Positions 53,893 to 64,000 of a DNA stretch of 64,000 nucleotides are shown here, piece by piece. Made by a program: the position numbers and the translations under genes. The notes beneath the pieces are model-generated. The model searched no databases, was not told where the DNA came from, and saw nothing but the letters and a program-made list of their open reading frames with translations. Numbering within the stretch: the first letter of the stretch is position 1; each line of letters opens with the position of its first letter. Origin of the DNA: an uncultured Bacteroidales bacterium (lineage in GTDB: Bacteria; Bacteroidota; Bacteroidia; Bacteroidales; Muribaculaceae); NCBI GenBank assembly GCA_902779125.1, contig CACZAC010000004.1, forward strand, positions 1 to 64,000, read 5' to 3'.

Positions 53893-56892
53893 CTATTCAC
53901 CCACAATCACTGCAACGACAGCGTTGACATCGGCAATGGTAACATCGCCGTCGCCGTTGACGTCACATGCCATGCCTCTATCATCCAGCCCATAGACAAG
54001 GACCGCTACCAAGGCATTAACATCAGCCAGACCAATCTCACCGTCACCGTTCACGTCTGCTCTGGCGGCATTGAAATTGACACCCTGTAGATTGCTGAAG
54101 CGCCTCCACACCAGCGCTTCCTTGTAGGTCGGCAGCGATGGTCTCGGCACATAGACAGTGGCACGGTTATAGGTGCCGTCACTGAAGGTGCTCTTGCCGC
54201 TCATTGCGGGAGGCGTCACAGCATGGCTTGTAATGGCAGTCAATGAATTGCAGTTGCCAAACGCCTGCACACCGACTGAATCCACAGCATTGCCAAAGGT
54301 CAAACTTGACAGTTTGTTACACCCATAGAACGCCTTGTCGCCAATCGTGCTGACGCCATCGCTCACAGTCATTTCCTTCATGTTTCTACAGCCCTGGAAA
54401 GCACTGGCGCCGATAGACTTCACATTCTGTCCCATTGTGACATCAACGATGCCATGGCAGTTGACGAACGTATAATCCTTGATTGCCGATACACTATCAG
54501 GAATAACCAGAGCCGTCACCTCCTCACCGCCGAGATAGAGGTGGTTGGCAGCATTCAACGGATTGGCATTCTGGTCTTCAAAGGTAACGTTGCACCACGC
54601 CTTGAGGTCTGCGATATCCACCCGCTGGAGTTTGGAGCACATCTTGAATGCCGAGGATGCGCAATAGGTAAGGCTCACAGGGATATTTATGCCAGTCAAT
54701 GATTTATCTGACTCAAAAGCCTCAAATCCAATGGCGGTAATGCCCTCATGTAAGGTAACCGTCTTCAGGGCAGGGCACTTGTAGAATGTGTATTCGGGGA
54801 TGCACTCCAGACGCTCACTGAGTGTCACTTCCTCCAACGCATCGTCAAAGGCGAACACCGCACAGCCGATTGAGGTGACGCTATTGGGCATTTCAAAGTT
54901 CGTCAGCGAAGTGCAACTATTGAACACATAATCCCCCAGATAAGTCACACCCTGGCCCAGATTGACAGATGTCAGCCCCGTGCATTCATAAAAAGCGGTA
55001 TAGTCCAAACTTTGCACTGAGTTGGGAATCTCCACATGACTCAAATTGCTGCATCCAGTGAAAGCCGCATAGCCAATTGACGTAAGGCCGTCGTGCAGTT
55101 CCAATTCGCTCAACGAACTATAGGCAAAGGCGAAAGAGCCCATCTCCTGTAACGAGCCAGGCAATGATAACGAGGCCAAATCCTCACAGTAGTAGAACGC
55201 ACAATAGCCAACCGATGTAATCCCTTCTTCAAGCGTGACATTGCGTAAATTGGGACATATTGCAAACGCATATTCCTTGACCTCGCACACCGATGCTGGA
55301 ATGACAACATCACTGAACAGGTTCCCCTGCTGATCATATAACGATGCAAAGTTAGTCAATGGATTGGAGGATAATGAAGTGAAGGTCATGCTGCACCACG
55401 ACTTGATGTCATCGACATAAACCGACTTGAGAGAGAGACAATCACCGAAAGCCCTGTCCTCTATCGTCATATCCGAACCAAGAATGCGCACGCTTTCCAA
55501 TGAACGGCAGTTGTAGAAAGCATTCCTGCCCAAGGTCCTGATACTGGCTGGCAACGTCACCGAAGTCAATCCCAAACAATTCATGAACGCACTGGGAGCA
55601 ACAGACGTCACGGGGTAGGTTTTGCCCTCGTGCTCTACCGACTCGGGAATGACCACATTGCCGGTGTAGGTATTCATGCCCATGCCCTTGTTCGCCACCT
55701 GAACGGCTTCGCCATCGATATTATAGTAGATTCCTGCCATTTCAAAGTCATATTTCGGCGCTGTTTCGCTTCCATTGCCAGGATAAAGATGATAGAGCAT
55801 GGAATGATTATATTGGAATTTCCAATCATTTTTGCCCAGGGCATCAAGAGCATAGTAACCGTCATAGTATCCTCCCCATCCCCAATTGACGTGATATTTT
55901 TCACCGTCATAACCGTCAAGAATGAACGCATGGCCGCCCGAATCCGAATGACCACAATACAAGATGGGCCGCCCTGCCGACAAATCCTCAAGCAGCATGC
56001 TGTTCCACTGCTCGTCATCCACATTGTCACGATACAGGCAAGCGGCGTCGGAGTTGTAACCGAACTGAATCATCGCGGCAAGCTGCTCCATCTCATACGC
56101 CCCGCTGGCTTCAGGAGTGTAGTCCATAAAACAGGCCTGTCCGCAATAGCGCATCAGCATAGCAACGGCTTTTCCCTGAGCAGCGGTGTAAGATCCTCTA
56201 TTATAGGTATCAATCATATTGTCCCAATCCAGTTGCACTGCCGGCAATTCATTAATCCAGATGCCAAGGTAATCAGTCCAATATCCAGGCAAAGCGGGCA
56301 CCGAGTCAGGATAATGCCAGTAATACATCACCTGGGCCATCGCCGTAGCGACGCATCCCGTCGCACAGTACTCGCCATCATAGACCGGGCACTGGTCGTA
56401 ATAGGGAGCGTCCTGGCTCCACTGGGCAGTAACCAACGGCTCTATCGTGCCATTGTGAGCAGGAGCACGCAGTCGGGGCGGCTTGGCAACGCCATTCTCC
56501 TCGGCGGCATGAGCGACCAACCATTCGATTTGAGCCTTGTACTGGTCCAGCCACCACTGTACATTGGCAGGAATTCTTGACATGTCAAAGGCATGGTCAC
56601 CGTAGGCGAGAATCCGTTCAGCACGGTCATCACCAGCCACGATGATAAAGGCATTATCATCTTCGGTATTGAACACATAATAATCGGCATGTCCCGCACG
56701 AACAGTTGACAGCTCGGTATGAACCAGACGCAATTCCGTCTTGCCGTTTCTCAACCTCTTCCCCTGCGCTTGGGACTGGATAAAACTCATCGCCGACCCC
56801 CTAGCGACATCGGCATCCACATCGGCTGCTGCCATACTCGCTGTCATCAACAGGACTGGCACAACCGTCAATAGAAACTTCATGTAATTCAT
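53893..56892 (-). CDS. C10 protease with BspA-type LRR domain and C-terminal dockerin
   Basis: 999 aa from ATG 56892 (MNYMKFLLTVVPVLLMTASM, signal peptide; in-frame ATGs at 56898 and 56883 are alternatives). Order: propeptide (YYVFNTEDDNAFIIVAGDDR), C10 catalytic domain with Cys180 in ATGCVATAMAQVMYYW and His321 in GGHAFILDGYDG plus YHVNWGWGG, then about 420-900 a BspA/LRR_5 domain of repeats such as LTSVTLPASIRTLGRNAFYN, then two dockerin loops (ADVNGDGEIGLADVNALV and CDVNGDGDVTIADVNAVV) at the very C-terminus. Fusing a protease to a long adhesive LRR solenoid suggests a surface protease docked to a protein target. A paralogue with the same order lies next to it (57253). Confidence 0.93.
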   Translation of the reverse strand: MNYMKFLLTVVPVLLMTASMAAADVDADVARGSAMSFIQSQAQGKRLRNGKTELRLVHTELSTVRAGHADYYVFNTEDDNAFIIVAGDDRAERILAYGDHAFDMSRIPANVQWWLDQYKAQIEWLVAHAAEENGVAKPPRLRAPAHNGTIEPLVTAQWSQDAPYYDQCPVYDGEYCATGCVATAMAQVMYYWHYPDSVPALPGYWTDYLGIWINELPAVQLDWDNMIDTYNRGSYTAAQGKAVAMLMRYCGQACFMDYTPEASGAYEMEQLAAMIQFGYNSDAACLYRDNVDDEQWNSMLLEDLSAGRPILYCGHSDSGGHAFILDGYDGEKYHVNWGWGGYYDGYYALDALGKNDWKFQYNHSMLYHLYPGNGSETAPKYDFEMAGIYYNIDGEAVQVANKGMGMNTYTGNVVIPESVEHEGKTYPVTSVAPSAFMNCLGLTSVTLPASIRTLGRNAFYNCRSLESVRILGSDMTIEDRAFGDCLSLKSVYVDDIKSWCSMTFTSLSSNPLTNFASLYDQQGNLFSDVVIPASVCEVKEYAFAICPNLRNVTLEEGITSVGYCAFYYCEDLASLSLPGSLQEMGSFAFAYSSLSELELHDGLTSIGYAAFTGCSNLSHVEIPNSVQSLDYTAFYECTGLTSVNLGQGVTYLGDYVFNSCTSLTNFEMPNSVTSIGCAVFAFDDALEEVTLSERLECIPEYTFYKCPALKTVTLHEGITAIGFEAFESDKSLTGINIPVSLTYCASSAFKMCSKLQRVDIADLKAWCNVTFEDQNANPLNAANHLYLGGEEVTALVIPDSVSAIKDYTFVNCHGIVDVTMGQNVKSIGASAFQGCRNMKEMTVSDGVSTIGDKAFYGCNKLSSLTFGNAVDSVGVQAFGNCNSLTAITSHAVTPPAMSGKSTFSDGTYNRATVYVPRPSLPTYKEALVWRRFSNLQGVNFNAARADVNGDGEIGLADVNALVAVLVYGLDDRGMACDVNGDGDVTIADVNAVVAVIVGE

Positions 56893-57022
56893 AATCATCC
56901 AAATTTAGATTTATTTGGCAACACCTCAATCCTGAAGAGTAAACTTTCATGACGTTCGGTTTGCACAAATGCTTATAATAATTAGTAATAACAACTTGAT
57001 TCCTTTTTTCCTTGGAATGGTG

Positions 57023-57030
57023 CAAACTTA
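57023..57030 (-). promoter_or_regulatory. -7 promoter box of the first C10-LRR gene
   Basis: TAAGTTTG on the minus strand about 130 bp upstream of the start. The leader that follows shares blocks with the leader of the paralogue (see 59981). Confidence 0.5.
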
Positions 57031-57147
57031 TCAATAAAAAACCATAAAAACAAGCAATTTTACAACAAAAGCCCCTCATTACTGGAAAAAATCCAAAAAT
57101 TGTCAAAATTCTTGACAATTTGGACCAGATTACCCCCAAAAAAAGAA

Positions 57148-57224
57148 CTGTGCCATCATTCCATTATTTCACTCTCCTTAACGCGACGGGCGATAAGAAC
57201 AGCAATAACAGAATGATGGCACAG
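57148..57224 (-). terminator. Large-loop terminator after the second C10-LRR gene
   Basis: CTGTGCCATCATT (57148-57160) pairs perfectly with AATGATGGCACAG (57212-57224). The 51-nt loop can extend the stem with TTATT/AATAA. On the minus strand a run of seven T follows. It lies 28 bp past the stop codon at 57253. Confidence 0.65.
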
Positions 57225-57252
57225 CCGCTTCGATGTGAGAAGCCTATATCAT

Positions 57253-59919
57253 CTAGGGTTCTGGGCGAAGAATGATGCTGATGACGGCGTTGACGTCGGC
57301 AATGGAAACCTCGCCGTCGCCGTTGACATCACGCGTCAAGTCGCCAGCGCCAGTCGTGATGGTCGAAATGACGGCATTGACATCGGCAACGGTAATCTCA
57401 CCGTCAAGATTCACATCGGCAGTTGCCGTGGTGATGATGGGTTCGATTCTGGTAAACCATCCCCAAATGCCCGAATGCTTGTAGGTCTGTTGCAAACCAG
57501 CCGGGACATAGAGCACCGCCTTGTCATAGATACTGCGCGTGAAGCTGCTCGGTGTAGCCAGTGTGGGAGGCACAGTTGCCAGACTGGTTACACTGACCAT
57601 GCGCGGGTTGTTGTCAAACGCTCTGTCATCAATCGTTTCCACGGCTCTGCCCAGCGTGAGGTGCTTGAGATAGATGCACTTGAAGAACGATTTCTCTCCG
57701 ATGGCAGTAACCTTGTCGGGGATGACAACATCGGTCAGAGCGAAACACTCAGAAAAAGCCTCGTCACCAATTGTGGTGAGAGAATCGGACAAAACCAGAT
57801 TCTGAAGGGCATCACATCCTGAAAAAGCAATTGCCCCAATCTGCTTGATACCAGGAGACATTACCACTTCGTTCAGTCCACTGCAACCATTGAACGCTCC
57901 ATATCCGATTGCCTCCATCGAAGCGGGGAAACTGATAGACGACAGACTGACGCAGTCGCGGAAAACATAATCGTCGATAATTGTTAAACCCTCAGGGATG
58001 TTGATGCTTCTCAGTCCGGAACACGATGCAAAGGCAGCATAGTTCAAGGCAGTGAGGCTATCGGGCAGAACAACTTCCTTCAACCCTGTGCAACCAAAGA
58101 ACACTTGATCGTCAATGGTACTGAGAGATGACGGCAACGACAGGCTCTTCAGACCGGTGCAGTAGGAAAAAGAGGCCACACCGACGGCGGTAACACCTTC
58201 TTCTAGCGTGAGAGACGTCAATCCCTCGCACTCAATAAACGCATAGCGGGGCACCTTGCCTACCGATGCAGGAATCACCAAATCGTGAACTTCCTCACCC
58301 GCCACAAACAATCGATGAGCATAACTCAAGGGATTGCCATAATGGTCAACAAAGGCAATCTGCAGCCACGATTCCAGGGTAGGAATCTCGACATGGGTCA
58401 AGGCGAAGCAATCCTGGAATGCCTTATTGCCGATAGAGGTCAAACTGGAGGGTAACTCCACTCGCTCCAGATTCATGCAATTGGCAAATGCCTGAGCGCC
58501 AATACTTGTCAGACCCTCGGGCAGGTTTACGCGGGCTAATCGTGTGCAATTCCTGAAAGCGTAGTCCTCCAATACCGTTATAGTGGACGGCAAAGTGACA
58601 CTAGTCAGACGCTCACAATTCCTGAAAGAGCCTCGGCCGATACCTCTCACGGGTAACGTTTCTCCGTCATACGTCACCTGGGACGGTATAACGACATCAC
58701 CGCTGTAGCTGTCATATCTTGTGTCCCGATAGGTAAGATACACACCAGTGCCGTCCTCATCATACATATAGTAAAAACCGTCGGACTCAAAGTCATAGCC
58801 ATCCTCATGCTCTATCACATCGGGATAGATATGAATCAGCATCTGTTGATAACTGTTGAACGAATAACCTTCGACCGAGAAAGCATCAAGCCTGAAGTAA
58901 CCGTCGCCAGTGCCTGCCCAACCCCAATTGATGTGATAACGGCCATTATTGCAACCATCAAGGACAAACGCATGTCCTCCTTGAAGGTTATCATTGCCCG
59001 AGAACAAAACGGGATGACCCTGAAGGATTTCCTGCTTGATCATGGCATCCCAATCCTCACGATTGTAGCTGGAACGCTCCACCATAATCGTGTTGCTGTA
59101 GCCAAACGCACGCATACCCGACAACTGTTGGGACACATACGCCCCGCTGCCGTCGGGACTGTAATCCATATGGCATGACTGGCCACAATAGCGCATCAGC
59201 GTGGCAACAGCATCGGCCTGGGACTCGGTGTATTGTACAACCCTGTAGTTGTCAATCATCTCATCCCAATTCAGCACCTTGCCTTGCAGTGTAGGTACAC
59301 TGATATTGTGCGTACGGGTCTTGTAGGCCGACAACGACGGTGCACGGCTCGGATAACGCCAGTAGTACATCACCTGGGCCATTGCCGTGGCGACACAACC
59401 CGTCACACAACGCTCACCGTTATACATGGGGCATTGGTTCCAGTAAGGTGCACTCTGGCTCCAGTTACAGGTCAACATCGGTGGAACGGTGGCATCGTCT
59501 GTATCCTCAGCGCGGTTCACACGGGCTCCTGGATGGGAGTGCAGCCATTCCAGCTGCTCCTTGTAGCTGTTCAGCAGCCACTGCATGTTACAAGGCAGGT
59601 TAGCCATATCGACCTTGCCATCGCCATAACCCAGAATACCTTCAGCACGGTCATCACCAGCCACAATGACAAAGGCCTTGCCGTCATCAACATCAAACAC
59701 ATAGTAGTCGGCACTACCATTGTTGGCCGATGACTGCTCGGTGTATTGCAGCCGAATGTCAGGTGTGGCTCCAATCATCAACTTTCCCGATGCTTGGGAA
59801 CGGATAAAACTTGTTGCCGATGCTCGGGCGGTTCCTGCATCGACACTGGCCGCCATCATGCCTGTCACAGTCAACAGGACAAACGCAGCTACTATAAACG
59901 ACTTCTTGTAACTCATCAT
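57253..59919 (-). CDS. C10 protease with BspA-type LRR domain and C-terminal dockerin (paralogue)
   Basis: 888 aa from ATG 59919 (MMSYKKSFIVAAFVLLTVTG, signal peptide); an upstream extension of 11 codons lacks a signal context and is not used. Same architecture as 53893: propeptide with YYVFDVDDGKAFVIVAGDDR, Cys175 in VTGCVATAMAQVMYYW, His316 in GGHAFVLDGCNNG plus YHINWGWAG, an LRR_5 solenoid (for example LTSVTLPSTITVLEDYAFRN and LTSIGAQAFANC), and C-terminal dockerin loops ADVNLDGEITVADVNAVI and RDVNGDGEVSIADVNAVI. A clear tandem duplicate of its neighbour, diverged along its length, and with a shorter solenoid. Confidence 0.93.
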   Translation of the reverse strand: MMSYKKSFIVAAFVLLTVTGMMAASVDAGTARASATSFIRSQASGKLMIGATPDIRLQYTEQSSANNGSADYYVFDVDDGKAFVIVAGDDRAEGILGYGDGKVDMANLPCNMQWLLNSYKEQLEWLHSHPGARVNRAEDTDDATVPPMLTCNWSQSAPYWNQCPMYNGERCVTGCVATAMAQVMYYWRYPSRAPSLSAYKTRTHNISVPTLQGKVLNWDEMIDNYRVVQYTESQADAVATLMRYCGQSCHMDYSPDGSGAYVSQQLSGMRAFGYSNTIMVERSSYNREDWDAMIKQEILQGHPVLFSGNDNLQGGHAFVLDGCNNGRYHINWGWAGTGDGYFRLDAFSVEGYSFNSYQQMLIHIYPDVIEHEDGYDFESDGFYYMYDEDGTGVYLTYRDTRYDSYSGDVVIPSQVTYDGETLPVRGIGRGSFRNCERLTSVTLPSTITVLEDYAFRNCTRLARVNLPEGLTSIGAQAFANCMNLERVELPSSLTSIGNKAFQDCFALTHVEIPTLESWLQIAFVDHYGNPLSYAHRLFVAGEEVHDLVIPASVGKVPRYAFIECEGLTSLTLEEGVTAVGVASFSYCTGLKSLSLPSSLSTIDDQVFFGCTGLKEVVLPDSLTALNYAAFASCSGLRSINIPEGLTIIDDYVFRDCVSLSSISFPASMEAIGYGAFNGCSGLNEVVMSPGIKQIGAIAFSGCDALQNLVLSDSLTTIGDEAFSECFALTDVVIPDKVTAIGEKSFFKCIYLKHLTLGRAVETIDDRAFDNNPRMVSVTSLATVPPTLATPSSFTRSIYDKAVLYVPAGLQQTYKHSGIWGWFTRIEPIITTATADVNLDGEITVADVNAVISTITTGAGDLTRDVNGDGEVSIADVNAVISIILRPEP

Positions 59920-59980
59920 TATTGTAAAATGCTTTATAATAATTAGTAACAAACGATAGCTTTAATCCTTAGGAATGCCG

Positions 59981-59988
59981 CAAATTTA
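59981..59988 (-). promoter_or_regulatory. -7 promoter box of the second C10-LRR gene
   Basis: TAAATTTG on the minus strand, 61 bp upstream of the start. The following leader contains GCATTCCTAAGGA and TTACTAATTATTATAA, nearly identical to blocks in the leader at 56930-57020 of the paralogue, so promoter and leader were duplicated together with the gene. Confidence 0.55.
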
Positions 59989-60088
59989 TAACTCTTTTTT
60001 CAATAAAACAACCTTTTTTCAAGAAATATTCCTTCACTCTCCAAATGCCACCGCCATAGGCGTCAACACACTATCAATCACTAAAAAA

Positions 60089-60123
60089 TGGCGTTGGGAT
60101 GTCAAAACAACACTCCAACGCCA
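60089..60123 (-). terminator. Rho-independent terminator after the M6 protease gene
   Basis: TGGCGTTGG pairs with CCAACGCCA; on the minus strand the stem is followed by TTTTTTAG. It lies 40 bp past the M6 stop codon. Confidence 0.7.
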
Positions 60124-60163
60124 ACTATGGTTAATCTGTCGGGGGAACGAGGCCAATGTGAAC

Positions 60164-61873
60164 TTACTCTGGCATGGTCAGAATGATGGTTATGACAGCA
60201 TTGACATCGGCAATGGTTACCTCTCCGTCACCGTTGACATCACACGTCATATCGACGCTACCATTCAAGATACCTGTTATCACAGCATTGACATCGGCAA
60301 CAGTGACTTCGCCGTCACCATTCACATCGCCAGGCAGAGGCTCCTCGGCCTTCATATACCAGAACGAAGCCAACCGTTTCTCAGCATCCACAGCCATCTC
60401 GGTAATGGGTTTGTGCATGAGACCGCCCGCGAAGACCGTGGCGGCAGGTATGGATGTGTCGGTGAGTGCATTGATGTCACCCTGTGGCCAAGTGTCAGTC
60501 ATGTTGGTAAAACCCGACAAGACGTTGTCGGCTGGAATGATGGTCATGCGCTGGTGGGACTTAACGTTGTTGGGAGTGTTGCTATCCCACGCCGACTTGC
60601 TATAGTCCACATGCAAAATCAGGATACCCTCGGCAGCAAGGTACGCGTCCCAATCGGTCTTAGTGCGGTATTCCAGCAGATAATATTCATTGGGGTTGGC
60701 ATTGTTGGTGACTTTCACCGCTGAGCCCTCGTCGGTGTTGAGGGGTGAAAGTGTATATTGGGTATCCTCGACAGGGTCAACAAGGTCCATCCAGCCCATA
60801 AAATGGCGCTCATAGGAGGTATAACCGCATGGCGTGTTGCCATTGTCCAGATAGCAGCCATGGTCCATAATGGACCAGTTGCTCATGCCATAGGCAGTGC
60901 CATTGTTGGTCGGATAGAAGTCTGGCAAACCCAGGCAGTGACCGAACTCGTGGCAGAAAGTGCCGATACCATCGATAACAGTGCTGTAATTGCTACTGCC
61001 CTCCAGTTCATTGAAGACCGCAAACCTGTCGATGGTGACACCGTTGAGCTGGAACGGGCCTGTCGTGCTGTAACCCCAGTCATAACACTCCTGCATATCC
61101 CACTGGCAGGGCCAAACGCTCTCGGGGACGGTGCGCCAAGCCTGGGCCTCGCCCACACCGGCATAGAGCACTACCACTACATCGACCTGACCGTCACCAT
61201 CGTTGTCATAGTTTGAGAAATCGACATTGTCAACTCCTGTACAGGCTTCATAAATCATCGTGCCCAGTTGCGCGTCATATTCATTCACGTTGGCACCATA
61301 GTAGGCGCGGTTATGGGGCAGGTCAACAGGACCCAGAATCTCGAAGCGGGGCGAGAACTGCCCGCGTGACTGCGATTCAAAGTAATGCAGGCAACTCTTG
61401 TTCTTCTCATTGAACTGGTTCTGGAAAGTGGCCAAAGGATCAGAGTCGATAAATTTTACATCGGTGTAGTTGACCAGGATGATAGGAATGCGTGGAGAAC
61501 CCTTCGTGGGCACTTGAGGGTTGTCATTATCCTCACGACGCGGCATGCGATGAGGACGTGATTTGAGCGTCATCTGGTCACTATAAGCTGTGATAAACGC
61601 CACTTCCTCAATGCCACGGAATCCCTCGTTGTGTGCCAGGACATTGCTTAACTGCCCATCGGCAGTGTAGCAATAGTCACCATGCTGATCGAGGGCGACT
61701 GTCAAGCCGTCTAACGTCATCAGCGAGTGGTTGAACTCGCCGCCTTGCATCACCAGCGTCACTGTCGAGCCATCGCTCTGGACATGAGTGAAAGGAACGG
61801 GCTTGGCAGGCACCGCCATCGCCATCAGGCAGGCAGCGGCGGCTATGGCTATTGCCAGTAGTGTCCTTTTCAT
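60164..61873 (-). CDS. M6 family metalloprotease with C-terminal dockerin
   Basis: 569-aa secreted zinc protease of the immune-inhibitor-A (M6) family. Signal peptide (MKRTLLAIAIAAAACLMAMA), propeptide (to about 110), and the catalytic domain with GTFCHEFGHCLGLPDFY: zinc ligands His308 and His312, Glu309 as base, Asp318 downstream, plus the Met-turn-like MSNWSIMDHG. The dockerin pair GDVNGDGEVTVADVNAVI and CDVNGDGEVTIADVNAVI ends the protein. It likely degrades host or dietary proteins at the surface. The start codon overlaps the stop of the upstream lipoprotein gene by 4 bp (61870-61873). Confidence 0.92.
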   Translation of the reverse strand: MKRTLLAIAIAAAACLMAMAVPAKPVPFTHVQSDGSTVTLVMQGGEFNHSLMTLDGLTVALDQHGDYCYTADGQLSNVLAHNEGFRGIEEVAFITAYSDQMTLKSRPHRMPRREDNDNPQVPTKGSPRIPIILVNYTDVKFIDSDPLATFQNQFNEKNKSCLHYFESQSRGQFSPRFEILGPVDLPHNRAYYGANVNEYDAQLGTMIYEACTGVDNVDFSNYDNDGDGQVDVVVVLYAGVGEAQAWRTVPESVWPCQWDMQECYDWGYSTTGPFQLNGVTIDRFAVFNELEGSSNYSTVIDGIGTFCHEFGHCLGLPDFYPTNNGTAYGMSNWSIMDHGCYLDNGNTPCGYTSYERHFMGWMDLVDPVEDTQYTLSPLNTDEGSAVKVTNNANPNEYYLLEYRTKTDWDAYLAAEGILILHVDYSKSAWDSNTPNNVKSHQRMTIIPADNVLSGFTNMTDTWPQGDINALTDTSIPAATVFAGGLMHKPITEMAVDAEKRLASFWYMKAEEPLPGDVNGDGEVTVADVNAVITGILNGSVDMTCDVNGDGEVTIADVNAVITIILTMPE

Positions 61874-62481
61874 TTTTTCTTGGCTTCGGCGGTCTCGTTG
61901 GCGATATACTCCTTCATATCCTCTTTGAGGCCGACACCGGTCTCAAGGTCCACAAAATCGTCGATGCGCCATGTGCCGTCTTCCAGCTTCATCGTCAGGC
62001 ACAGCGGGGTGACATTGTCAAAATTGTGCAGTTTCAACTCGACGGTCGCCCAGGGGCCGATCCTCTCGACAACCTTCACGTCACTGACGGACAAGTTATG
62101 CCAATCCTGACCCATAATCCAATAGTCGAAATCCCAGAAACCCATCTCATTTTGATGATAGAGGCTGTCAATCTCATTGACTTTTTTCATGAGCTTGTTC
62201 CACTCGCTGCTGCAGTAGTTGGCTTCAAAATCGGCACGTCGCTCATACACATCATTTGCCATCATGGAGTCTATATCCAGATTGCGCAGCGAATCTGCCT
62301 CGTTATACACCTTGAAAACAGCGCCGTAGATTTCCTGCACGCGCTCCACTACCGCTGCAGTGTCAAGACCATCATGACCACCCTCACTGTCGCTTTTCAC
62401 GACAGCACCACGCGACGAGCAAGCCCCCAACACCAGAAATGCGGCTGCTGCCAAAAGAATCAAATTGTTTATCGTTTTCAT
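61870..62481 (-). CDS. Small lipoprotein (DUF3828-like) coupled to the M6 protease
   Basis: 203 aa from ATG 62481 (MKTINNLILLAAAAFLVLGA then Cys: lipobox LGAC). The product is a helical-beta domain with IDSMMANDVYERRADFEANY and, near the end, VELKLHNFDNVTPLCLTMKL then EDGTWRIDDFVDLETG, a pattern of DUF3828 lipoproteins. These are uncharacterised. Translational coupling to the M6 gene (ATGA overlap) suggests that the two act together, for example as a membrane-bound inhibitor, chaperone or tether for the protease. Promoter at 62505-62512. Confidence 0.7.
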   Translation of the reverse strand: MKTINNLILLAAAAFLVLGACSSRGAVVKSDSEGGHDGLDTAAVVERVQEIYGAVFKVYNEADSLRNLDIDSMMANDVYERRADFEANYCSSEWNKLMKKVNEIDSLYHQNEMGFWDFDYWIMGQDWHNLSVSDVKVVERIGPWATVELKLHNFDNVTPLCLTMKLEDGTWRIDDFVDLETGVGLKEDMKEYIANETAEAKKK

Positions 62482-62504
62482 TTTATCATTAGATTTTACT
62501 CCTG

Positions 62505-62512: not shown

Positions 62513-62588
62513 CACATTTTCCCTAAAACAACAAACCATCCACTAGCCGGGACACTGATTGGCTTCTGTTAACTGACACAAGAAACCA

Positions 62589-63179
62589 TTAGTACTTCAT
62601 TTTCTTAAGGTAATCTTCAACTAATACCTCACATTCCTTTTTAGCAACTTCTATATCGTCAAATGCGATGATATGAAAATTATTCTTTTTACAACAATTC
62701 AACAACTCATTATGAATTTCTTCTATCCGTTTTTCCTCTTTCTCAGTTTTATCTGAAATGCCCTTTCTTGTGGTTTTCCTCTTTAACAAAACTTTTTCTT
62801 TTACTGACAACTTATTATCTAGACCTATCAGCAAATAATCCTTATCTGAAAGAGAGGACAAAAACGACTCCGAGAAATGCATGCCCTCAATAATGATATT
62901 TTCACCACGCTTGCGATAAATCTCTATTATGCCCGCTATGGTTTGAGATACTATTTCTTTCTGTTCGTTTAAAGCCGCTACAGACATCTTATATGTTGAT
63001 GTTGAGAAGATTGATTCATTTTTAGTTGTTACATAAAAGAAATTCCGCACCATGTCTGTGCATAAAACTCCTGAAAAACAATATTTATTAGCAAGATGAT
63101 TTGCTATAATTGATTTCCCTGAAAAAGAACCTGCAGCAATGATTATAACCGGGGAGACATTAGTTTTCATTATTTTCAT
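62589..63179 (-). CDS. P-loop kinase, 2-phosphoglycerate kinase / zeta-toxin-like
   Basis: 196-aa cytoplasmic NTPase. Walker A is AAGSFSGKS (about residues 15-23, G-x4-GKS) on the first strand, followed by LCTDMVRNFF (the D-x-x-R substrate-proximal motif of small-molecule kinases), the Walker B-like NIIIEGMHFSES, and a basic lid helix KRKTTRKGISDKTEKEEKR. The order fits 2-phosphoglycerate-kinase-like or zeta-toxin/shikimate-type small kinases more than AAA ATPases. The substrate is unknown. AT-rich (strong use of AAA/ATT/TTA codons), unlike the rest of the window. It follows the RuBisCO-like gene by 73 bp on the same strand. An alternative start is at 63170. Confidence 0.65.
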   Translation of the reverse strand: MKIMKTNVSPVIIIAAGSFSGKSIIANHLANKYCFSGVLCTDMVRNFFYVTTKNESIFSTSTYKMSVAALNEQKEIVSQTIAGIIEIYRKRGENIIIEGMHFSESFLSSLSDKDYLLIGLDNKLSVKEKVLLKRKTTRKGISDKTEKEEKRIEEIHNELLNCCKKNNFHIIAFDDIEVAKKECEVLVEDYLKKMKY

Positions 63180-63252
63180 TTATCTCTTTTGAATAGTTTG
63201 ACCAAAATCCATCAAAAACTTATTTCTAAAACTTTTCTCAAATCCTTATAAC

Positions 63253-64000
63253 TCACTTAAACGAGTCACACCATGACCTTACCTTATCCCAATCTATGCT
63301 ACCATCTTGATCTCGATAGTATCCACAACTAAGATAGATAGCATCATCTCCAAAAACGGGCAACAGATAATCCAATACCTGTGGAGTTGTTATCGTGAAA
63401 ATAGGTTTAAAATTTGGATTAAGTGGTTTTTGTTTTTCAACTAAAAGTTTTTTCTCATCTAATTCATGTGGTAACGGTGTGCCTATATGCAAAAGGTCGA
63501 CACCAGACAACTGAACAATGGTAAGTAAGGCATCCATAGAAATATTGCCCTTAATAGCTTCATACCCTATTCGATGGCCCCATATACTAATTTTGGGATA
63601 ACGTTTTTTAAGCCCAAAAACTGGACCAAATCCAGAGATCAGGTAATCTATCATGAATATGTTTATACCCATTTCTATAAGGCTCTCTATAAAACTATAA
63701 TCCGAAATATAGGCCGTGATATTTGGTACAAAATATGCCGCAGAGCCAATGGCCGCCTGAATATACTTTGCCTCAGTGAATAAATTCTTTTTTGTCAGAA
63801 AGAAACACTCATCATTCTTAAACACATTGCACCCTAACTCAATAAAACGTCTTGCTTGTGCAGCTTTTTCTTCTGCTGTCTGATGATAGTATGGTTTAAA
63901 TATTGTTCCTTTTAAAGGAAAACCACTTAAAGCAATCTTTTCTCTGGAGATATAGTTTCTTAAACTTGAGTCTGACAAGTCTACTTCTGAAAGATATATA
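63253..64000 (-). CDS. RuBisCO-like protein (form IV type), partial at the window edge
   Basis: The frame is open through base 64000, so the N-terminus is missing; about 248 residues are visible and cover the catalytic barrel of the RuBisCO large-chain family. Aligned by eye to RuBisCO: GTIFKPYYHQTAEE corresponds to the TIKPKLGL segment (Lys of KP kept, next Lys replaced by Tyr), FKNDE to the carbamylated-Lys/metal site KDDE (Lys, Asp, Glu kept), WGHRIGYEAIKG to HRAMH, and LLHIGTP to the HSGT site. The loop-6 Lys is missing and SGG is replaced by TTPQ, so it should not fix CO2; such proteins act as enolases or decarboxylases on phosphorylated sugar acids. AT-rich, probably acquired. Confidence 0.82.
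   Translation of the reverse strand, partial: IYLSEVDLSDSSLRNYISREKIALSGFPLKGTIFKPYYHQTAEEKAAQARRFIELGCNVFKNDECFFLTKKNLFTEAKYIQAAIGSAAYFVPNITAYISDYSFIESLIEMGINIFMIDYLISGFGPVFGLKKRYPKISIWGHRIGYEAIKGNISMDALLTIVQLSGVDLLHIGTPLPHELDEKKLLVEKQKPLNPNFKPIFTITTPQVLDYLLPVFGDDAIYLSCGYYRDQDGSIDWDKVRSWCDSFK

Follow-up and report, generated by a model that had tools for sequence, protein, structure and literature searches.

Relatives of RuBisCO are a leading example of one enzyme fold acquiring new chemistry, and few functions are known for the RuBisCO-like proteins (RLPs). One account names MtnW and the apiose enzymes and, in its reference list, an isomerase of R. rubrum, and according to it the apiose-pathway RLPs act on 3-oxo-isoapionate-4-phosphate, a monophosphate (PMC6302742). 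Several RLP genes stand beside a gene for a kinase. OiaX, of D-apiose catabolism, and two RLP genes are annotated next to four-carbon acid sugar kinases, the kinase beside OiaX going, we assume, by the name OiaK. Among Bacteroidota, all seven OiaX-type loci (L007-L013, four of the seven placed with OiaX in the tree described below) adjoin a kinase of a single family, where the neighbours were assigned by sequence and the kinase domains checked for L007. A plasmid cluster of Vibrio nigripulchritudo likewise places an FGGY kinase next to an RLP, together with a transketolase. Plasmid-borne transketolase genes accompany an RLP of 372-381 aa at L141 and L142, and the Vibrio plasmid has the FGGY kinase as well. 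The first-pass annotation of the locus considered here knew of no described pair of exactly its kind in gut Bacteroidales; these cases do not support the view that a kinase-plus-RLP pair as such is undescribed. What stands of its reading is that an RLP with its enolisation residues retained adjoins a P-loop kinase in an acquired island and lies outside the MtnW clade.

The locus lies at the right end of the window, by which is meant the whole stretch of 64,000 nucleotides that was analysed (positions 1-64000 of contig CACZAC010000004.1, 94,518 bases in total). GC content, which is 0.49-0.54 per 1-kb window from 59,501 to 62,500, falls to 0.337-0.341 over the final 1.5 kb of the window, and on the extended contig the low GC continues to about 66,250; the AT-rich island has a GC content of about 0.35 as against about 0.5 outside. 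It is located between genes that start at 62,517 and 66,293 in window numbering, its left part occupying 62518-64000 and the whole reaching to 66,292. Four intact genes make up its content, three on the minus strand and one divergent gene on the plus strand. The minus-strand genes are transcribed in the order dehydrogenase-like gene, RLP gene, kinase gene, with a 13-nt overlap between the first two and a gap of 73 nt between the RLP and kinase genes; the divergent gene encodes a phosphoribosyltransferase (PRTase). Third-position GC (GC3) is 0.31-0.32 in the three minus-strand genes and 0.41 in the PRTase gene, compared with 0.66-0.76 in six flanking host genes. The AT-richness of the last 1.5 kb, remarked on at first pass, is thus confirmed in both measures, and the expectation that more genes would follow to the right was correct, the dehydrogenase-like and PRTase genes being the two found on the extended contig. 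The motif TA-n-n-TTTG precedes both transcription units, but was rejected as a promoter candidate, its frequency in the island being about that of chance by our own estimate.

Comparison with congeners shows that the four genes, of foreign composition, are inserted between genes that are neighbours elsewhere in the genus, and that they constitute a horizontally acquired cassette of 3.8 kb. The right flank is a LysO exporter pair, and the left flank is a gene for a DUF3828-like lipoprotein whose score falls just below the family cut-off. The exporter is present in 41 of 61 genus genomes (own included), and the site was examined in 20 of the 40 other exporter-bearing congeners, taken from the top of the list and without G963, G971 and G947. 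A homologue of the lipoprotein (33-90% identical) adjoins the exporter in all 20, with 9-952 nt separating the projected starts (367 nt or less in 19 of the 20) where the present contig has 3,775 nt; no match to DNA of the cassette occurs in any of the 20 congener stretches. It is because the flanking genes are adjacent, and the cassette absent, in every congener examined that insertion is concluded. In the nearest congener, whose exporter is 99% identical, the flanking gap is 68 nt, and the DNA resembles that genome as far as about 62,512 at the left end and again from 66,293 onward at the right. The island ends examined have no direct 8-mers in common and show one 9-base inverted match. Contamination was considered and rejected, the island being bordered by host genes at either end within a single contig.

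The RLP gene (63253-64275, minus strand; window part 63253-64000) encodes a protein of 340 aa that the window end cuts at residue 93, a 248-aa fragment lying inside. The full protein belongs to the RuBisCO superfamily, as the first-pass annotation had it: PF00016 (RuBisCO_large) is matched at 35.7 bits (cut-off 30.1, E 7.6e-9), the single such match in the assembly. Its NCBIfam rubisco matches are the large subunit (43.4 bits), form III (41.1) and PRK13475 (17.7). No match to the MtnW models (TIGR03332, PRK09549) or to the OiaX model NF042437 was obtained with E up to 10, whereas seven other RLPs and a form I protein, scanned alongside, match all six rubisco and RLP models. The window fragment reaches 10.3 bits on NF042437 (E 0.21; cut-off 700), and the OiaX-type protein L011 itself scores 500, below that cut-off. 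The nearest solved structures are rubiscos, namely 9z01 (E 2.2e-11), 6hun, 8dht and 3a13 (range E 2e-11 to 3e-7), which we take to be of forms I/III; 9z01, the best sequence match, is a 559-aa chain named ribulose bisphosphate carboxylase.

A residue map was drawn with the alignment to form I as guide, at 15-25% identity and with the loop-6 and terminal positions less sure; the numbers are presumably those of spinach rubisco. K175, K201, D203, E204, H294, R295, H327, G404, N123 and E60 are retained, so that K201, D203 and E204 of the metal site are all present. Not retained are K177, H298, K334, S379, G380, G381, G403, T65 and W66, with K177 replaced by Y, K334 by P, S379 by T and G403 by C, and with G380 and G381 gapped; loop 6 is built differently from that of form I. 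The map bears out the initial observation that the metal-site K-x-D-E is kept while the loop-6 Lys and the SGG are lost. GHR and H-I/V-G motifs are common to the RLP and RuBisCO forms I/III, its best sequence matches, but the cassette protein lacks the loop-6 Lys, K177 and the SGG and is shorter by about 100 aa or more; judging from the sequence, carboxylation by it would not be expected. R295 and H327 are present in form I, in 9z01 and in the OiaX-type protein, and the MtnW, Chlorobium-type and 3qfw-type proteins compared are without both. The combination seen here, K334 lost with R295 and H327 kept, occurs in none of four RLP representatives compared. Single-sequence structure models gave a pLDDT of 38.8 for the RLP fragment and 38.5 for the kinase, too low for a check of the sites.

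Placement of the RLP was approached with a tree built on its central region (34 rows, 178 columns) and AU tests in which it was held with named clades. The free tree joins it to 9z01 at 98/84 with an end branch of 2.83, a placement that may be biased, the 9z01 row being a fragment cut to the query-aligned part. A clade with MtnW (p 0.0012), with the Chlorobium-type proteins (p 0.0029) or with the 3qfw-type proteins (p 0.0014) is rejected. The 3qfw-type group is split in the free tree. Removal of L142 makes it monophyletic, and the RLP is still rejected from it (p 0.0002), as it is from a clade with L142 alone (p 0.0003). Form I (p 0.058), form III without 9z01 (p 0.054) and OiaX (p 0.203) are not rejected. 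When 9z01 is left out, the RLP comes out closest to the form III rows, with an end branch of 3.7, and the rejections are weaker but hold (MtnW p 0.0093, Chlorobium-type p 0.0214, 3qfw-type without L142 p 0.0131); the p value for a clade with OiaX is then 0.453. By these tests the RLP lies toward rubisco and OiaX within the family and apart from the branches of MtnW, the Chlorobium-type and the 3qfw-type proteins; it appears to sit in no characterised clade that could be demonstrated. Placement in a characterised RLP clade, with MtnW as the example, had been named in the first-pass annotation as fatal to its proposal; for MtnW it is contradicted both by the AU tests and by the lack of an MtnW model match. 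With MtnW, the 2,3-diketo-5-methylthiopentyl-1-phosphate enolase, the RLP has in common the superfamily and the metal triad, but placement there is rejected and the MtnW compared (2oek) is without R295 and H327.

The kinase gene (62589-63179, minus strand) encodes 196 aa in which the motifs GSFSGKS and TDMVR are visible, as expected of the small P-loop kinase with a D-x-x-R site that had been annotated. Its best family match is 2-phosphoglycerate kinase (2PGK; PRK04220, 43.7 bits, E 2.1e-11, cut-off 343), and the mevalonate-3-phosphate 5-kinase model gives 20.7 bits (cut-off 250). The P-loop and the TD-x-x-R, the latter presumably a signature of these two enzymes, are common to them and the cassette kinase, but its scores lie far below the model cut-offs. 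The kinases of the known RLP pairs belong to other families. OiaX with OiaK resembles the cassette in its adjacent kinase gene and in an RLP acting on a monophosphate, the type of substrate predicted for the cassette RLP, and the OiaX-type protein L011 and the cassette RLP both keep K175, K201, D203, E204, H294, R295 and H327; the cassette RLP, however, has 340 aa rather than 413-426 aa, is without the K334 that the OiaX-type protein keeps, does not match the OiaX model, and stands next to a P-loop kinase resembling 2PGK where OiaX has a four-carbon acid sugar kinase. The Vibrio nigripulchritudo cluster shares with it a carbohydrate kinase adjoining an RLP, but differs in the RLP branch (a clade with L142 is rejected, p 0.0003) and in the kinase family.

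The third minus-strand gene (64,263-65,246) encodes a DHQS/glycerol-1-phosphate-dehydrogenase-like protein of 327 aa, which matches Fe-ADH_2 at 34.6 bits and glycerol-1-phosphate dehydrogenase (G1PDH; PRK00843) at 39.2 bits vs a cut-off of 413. Compared with two Bacteroidales relatives that are 22-23% identical, it keeps H220 and H234, which we take to be metal ligands in the Fe-ADH_2/G1PDH family, and has E145 where those relatives have D; Glu-His-His is the DHQS pattern. The GGG of the NAD site reads GGF, and the following aspartate is also lost, so that NAD binding is uncertain. From these residues the enzyme may be either cyclase-like or dehydrogenase-like.

The divergent gene (65,494-66,144, plus strand) encodes a PRTase of 216 aa (Pribosyltran, 28.9 bits) with an N-terminal membrane helix (hydropathy 2.6 over residues 12-30), and its nearest PDB entries are the purine PRTases 1vdm and 4z1o, presumably archaeal. 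A search of 384 order genomes gave 19 matches besides its own, one of them strong. This one clear relative, in another Bacteroidales genome, G1165 (33% identity, E 2.3e-18), also begins with a membrane segment (hydropathy 2.3) and shares the VAGE-x-H loop. Its gene lies 68 nt after that of an 844-aa protein that matches the PADLOC Ppl model (E 1.9e-33) and whose Pfam PHP and SMC matches are below cut-offs; it overlaps a HAD hydrolase gene, and a restriction/methylase-domain gene is 5.5 kb away. The tandem of Ppl-like protein, membrane PRTase and HAD hydrolase (L129, 4245-8061) is itself a candidate for a defence operon. PADLOC models matched neither the G1165 PRTase nor the HAD protein, no match to that PRTase was found in plasmids, and in 78 genomes related to G1165 a profile built from both PRTases found 2 more weak matches.

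Beyond the PRTase, relatives of the cassette genes are scarce. The RLP was found only in its own genome among 395 class genomes, the sole other match having been rejected as spurious (it sits in a SpoIIE-domain regulator), and again only there among 198 family genomes; viral contigs and phages gave none, and plasmids gave two records at 26%, one of them annotated as rbcL and scoring best on the OiaX model. A pattern scan of genome contigs returned 24 stretches, none confirmed, and a second returned 0, a weak result, as its pattern was validated on the own locus only and demands motifs that relatives may lack. PF00016 is matched in 125 of 395 phylum genomes, and among the matches listed the own order is represented by the own genome only. 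Elsewhere in the phylum, L036-L049, L052, L053 and L055 are RLPs of 362-397 aa from several families; L036, the one of that group that was compared, has 3qfw as its nearest PDB entry and H at the expected E204. The kinase was found in no other of 89 order genomes, and neither it nor the PRTase was found in viral contigs, phages or plasmids. The dehydrogenase-like protein had 6 weak matches besides its own in 393 order genomes (19-37% over parts) and, among viral contigs, phages and plasmids, three plasmid matches only, at 22%. Against PHROGs nothing was better than E 0.017, and none of the four cassette proteins matched a PADLOC model with E up to 1. The RLP, kinase and dehydrogenase thus have no close homologue in the collections searched, and the gene combination was not found in the open-licence literature searched. 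In the searches made, no precedent appeared for the RLP branch, for a 2PGK-like kinase as its partner or for the set of four genes; with no relatives found, the cassette is a lead and not a system.

The likeliest reading, which we favour tentatively, is that the 3.8 kb cassette was acquired for a pathway of a small phosphorylated metabolite in which the RLP enolises a monophosphate. The RLP would perform the initial half of the RuBisCO reaction, enolising at a carbon adjacent to a ketone, with no carboxylation. It would bind one phosphate via R295 and H327, which we take to be the site holding the C5 phosphate in RuBisCO; K334, G381 and G403, presumably the C1-phosphate and loop-6 site, are gone. 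With the first site kept and the second gone, the predicted substrate is a keto compound that bears just one phosphate. This phosphate would come from the kinase, while the metal-dependent DHQS/G1PDH-like enzyme, acting before or after the RLP, would form or consume the keto or hydroxyl group. This pathway reading draws on the 13-nt overlap, the 73-nt gap, the common GC3 of the minus-strand genes, the residue map and the evidence of insertion; on the nearest models being form I/III rubisco and the nearest structures rubiscos, with the MtnW, Chlorobium-type and 3qfw-type clades rejected; and on the analogy of the apiose RLPs, which act on a monophosphate, and of OiaX, which adjoins a kinase. 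Against it count the uncertain NAD binding of the dehydrogenase, the low identity of the RLP alignment, and the divergent orientation and somewhat higher GC3 of the PRTase gene; and since no homologous cassette was found, nothing shows that selection keeps the genes together.

The same island could also serve defence or conflict, the three-enzyme operon making a phosphorylated signal or a modified nucleotide or sugar and the membrane PRTase being effector or receptor. The compactness of an acquired island that is absent at the same site in all 20 congeners fits such a role, as does the position of the only clear PRTase relative after a Ppl-like gene and near a restriction/methylase gene, and PRTases are reported to be probable effectors in retrons, with protection against T7 and lambda conferred by a DprA-PRTase pair (PMC9122126); PRTase also stands among the abbreviations for validated systems in a figure legend of another source (PMC13092281). 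Yet that neighbourhood is a single one in which the Ppl-like protein's PHP and SMC matches are below cut-offs, PADLOC recognises neither the four cassette proteins nor the G1165 PRTase and HAD protein, the identified cassette neighbours are non-defence genes and the enzymes resemble ordinary small-molecule enzymes, so a defence role seems rather unlikely. It is more doubtful in its specific form, in which the RLP, the DHQS/G1PDH-like enzyme and the 2PGK-like kinase would produce a phosphorylated small-molecule signal, or convert a metabolite that phage has altered, for readout by the membrane-anchored PRTase; we know of no RuBisCO-superfamily enzyme in immunity, and this would be the first, if true.

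A surface-glycan or polyol-phosphate pathway, with the G1PDH-like enzyme making a polyol phosphate for polysaccharide and the RLP and kinase performing side steps, is improbable: the two G1PDH-like relatives whose surroundings were inspected (L131, L132) do lie among genes that by eye look like polysaccharide genes, one of them beside a cytidylyltransferase-domain gene, but they are only 22-23% identical, the four cassette proteins include no glycosyltransferase, nucleotidyltransferase or transporter, and to our knowledge no RLP has been described in such a pathway. Less probable again is a variant of OiaK/OiaX in which the RLP is a far-diverged 3-oxo acid phosphate decarboxylase and the kinase a non-homologous replacement of OiaK. 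The AU tests do not reject an OiaX clade, with or without 9z01, and the OiaX-type protein compared likewise keeps K175, R295 and H327; set against this are the failure of the full RLP to match a model that all seven other RLPs scanned do match, the loss of K334, and the adjoining genes listed, among which no apiose-type gene was recognised by eye. That the genes are foreign and decaying, a non-functional remnant, is very unlikely: several otherwise conserved positions are lost and no relatives under selection were demonstrated, but every one of the four genes has an open frame, and the RLP, kinase and dehydrogenase selectively retain catalytic residues.

In the preferred pathway reading, an RLP that drops the parts for carboxylation and retains the enolisation site with R295 and H327 is accompanied by candidate partners for its pathway, all within one self-contained insert. 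Such a pathway, if worked out, would add a further RLP reaction, and the bolder case would bring a RuBisCO relative into conflict biology.

Left of the island, the window also holds three neighbouring secreted-protease genes (53893-61873). Two encode peptidase C10 (streptopain-like) proteins with a Spi inhibitor domain, BspA-type leucine-rich repeats (LRR) and a dockerin-like end, and the other encodes an M6-type peptidase with a dockerin end; the C10/LRR genes are partially matched at the same place in several congeners.
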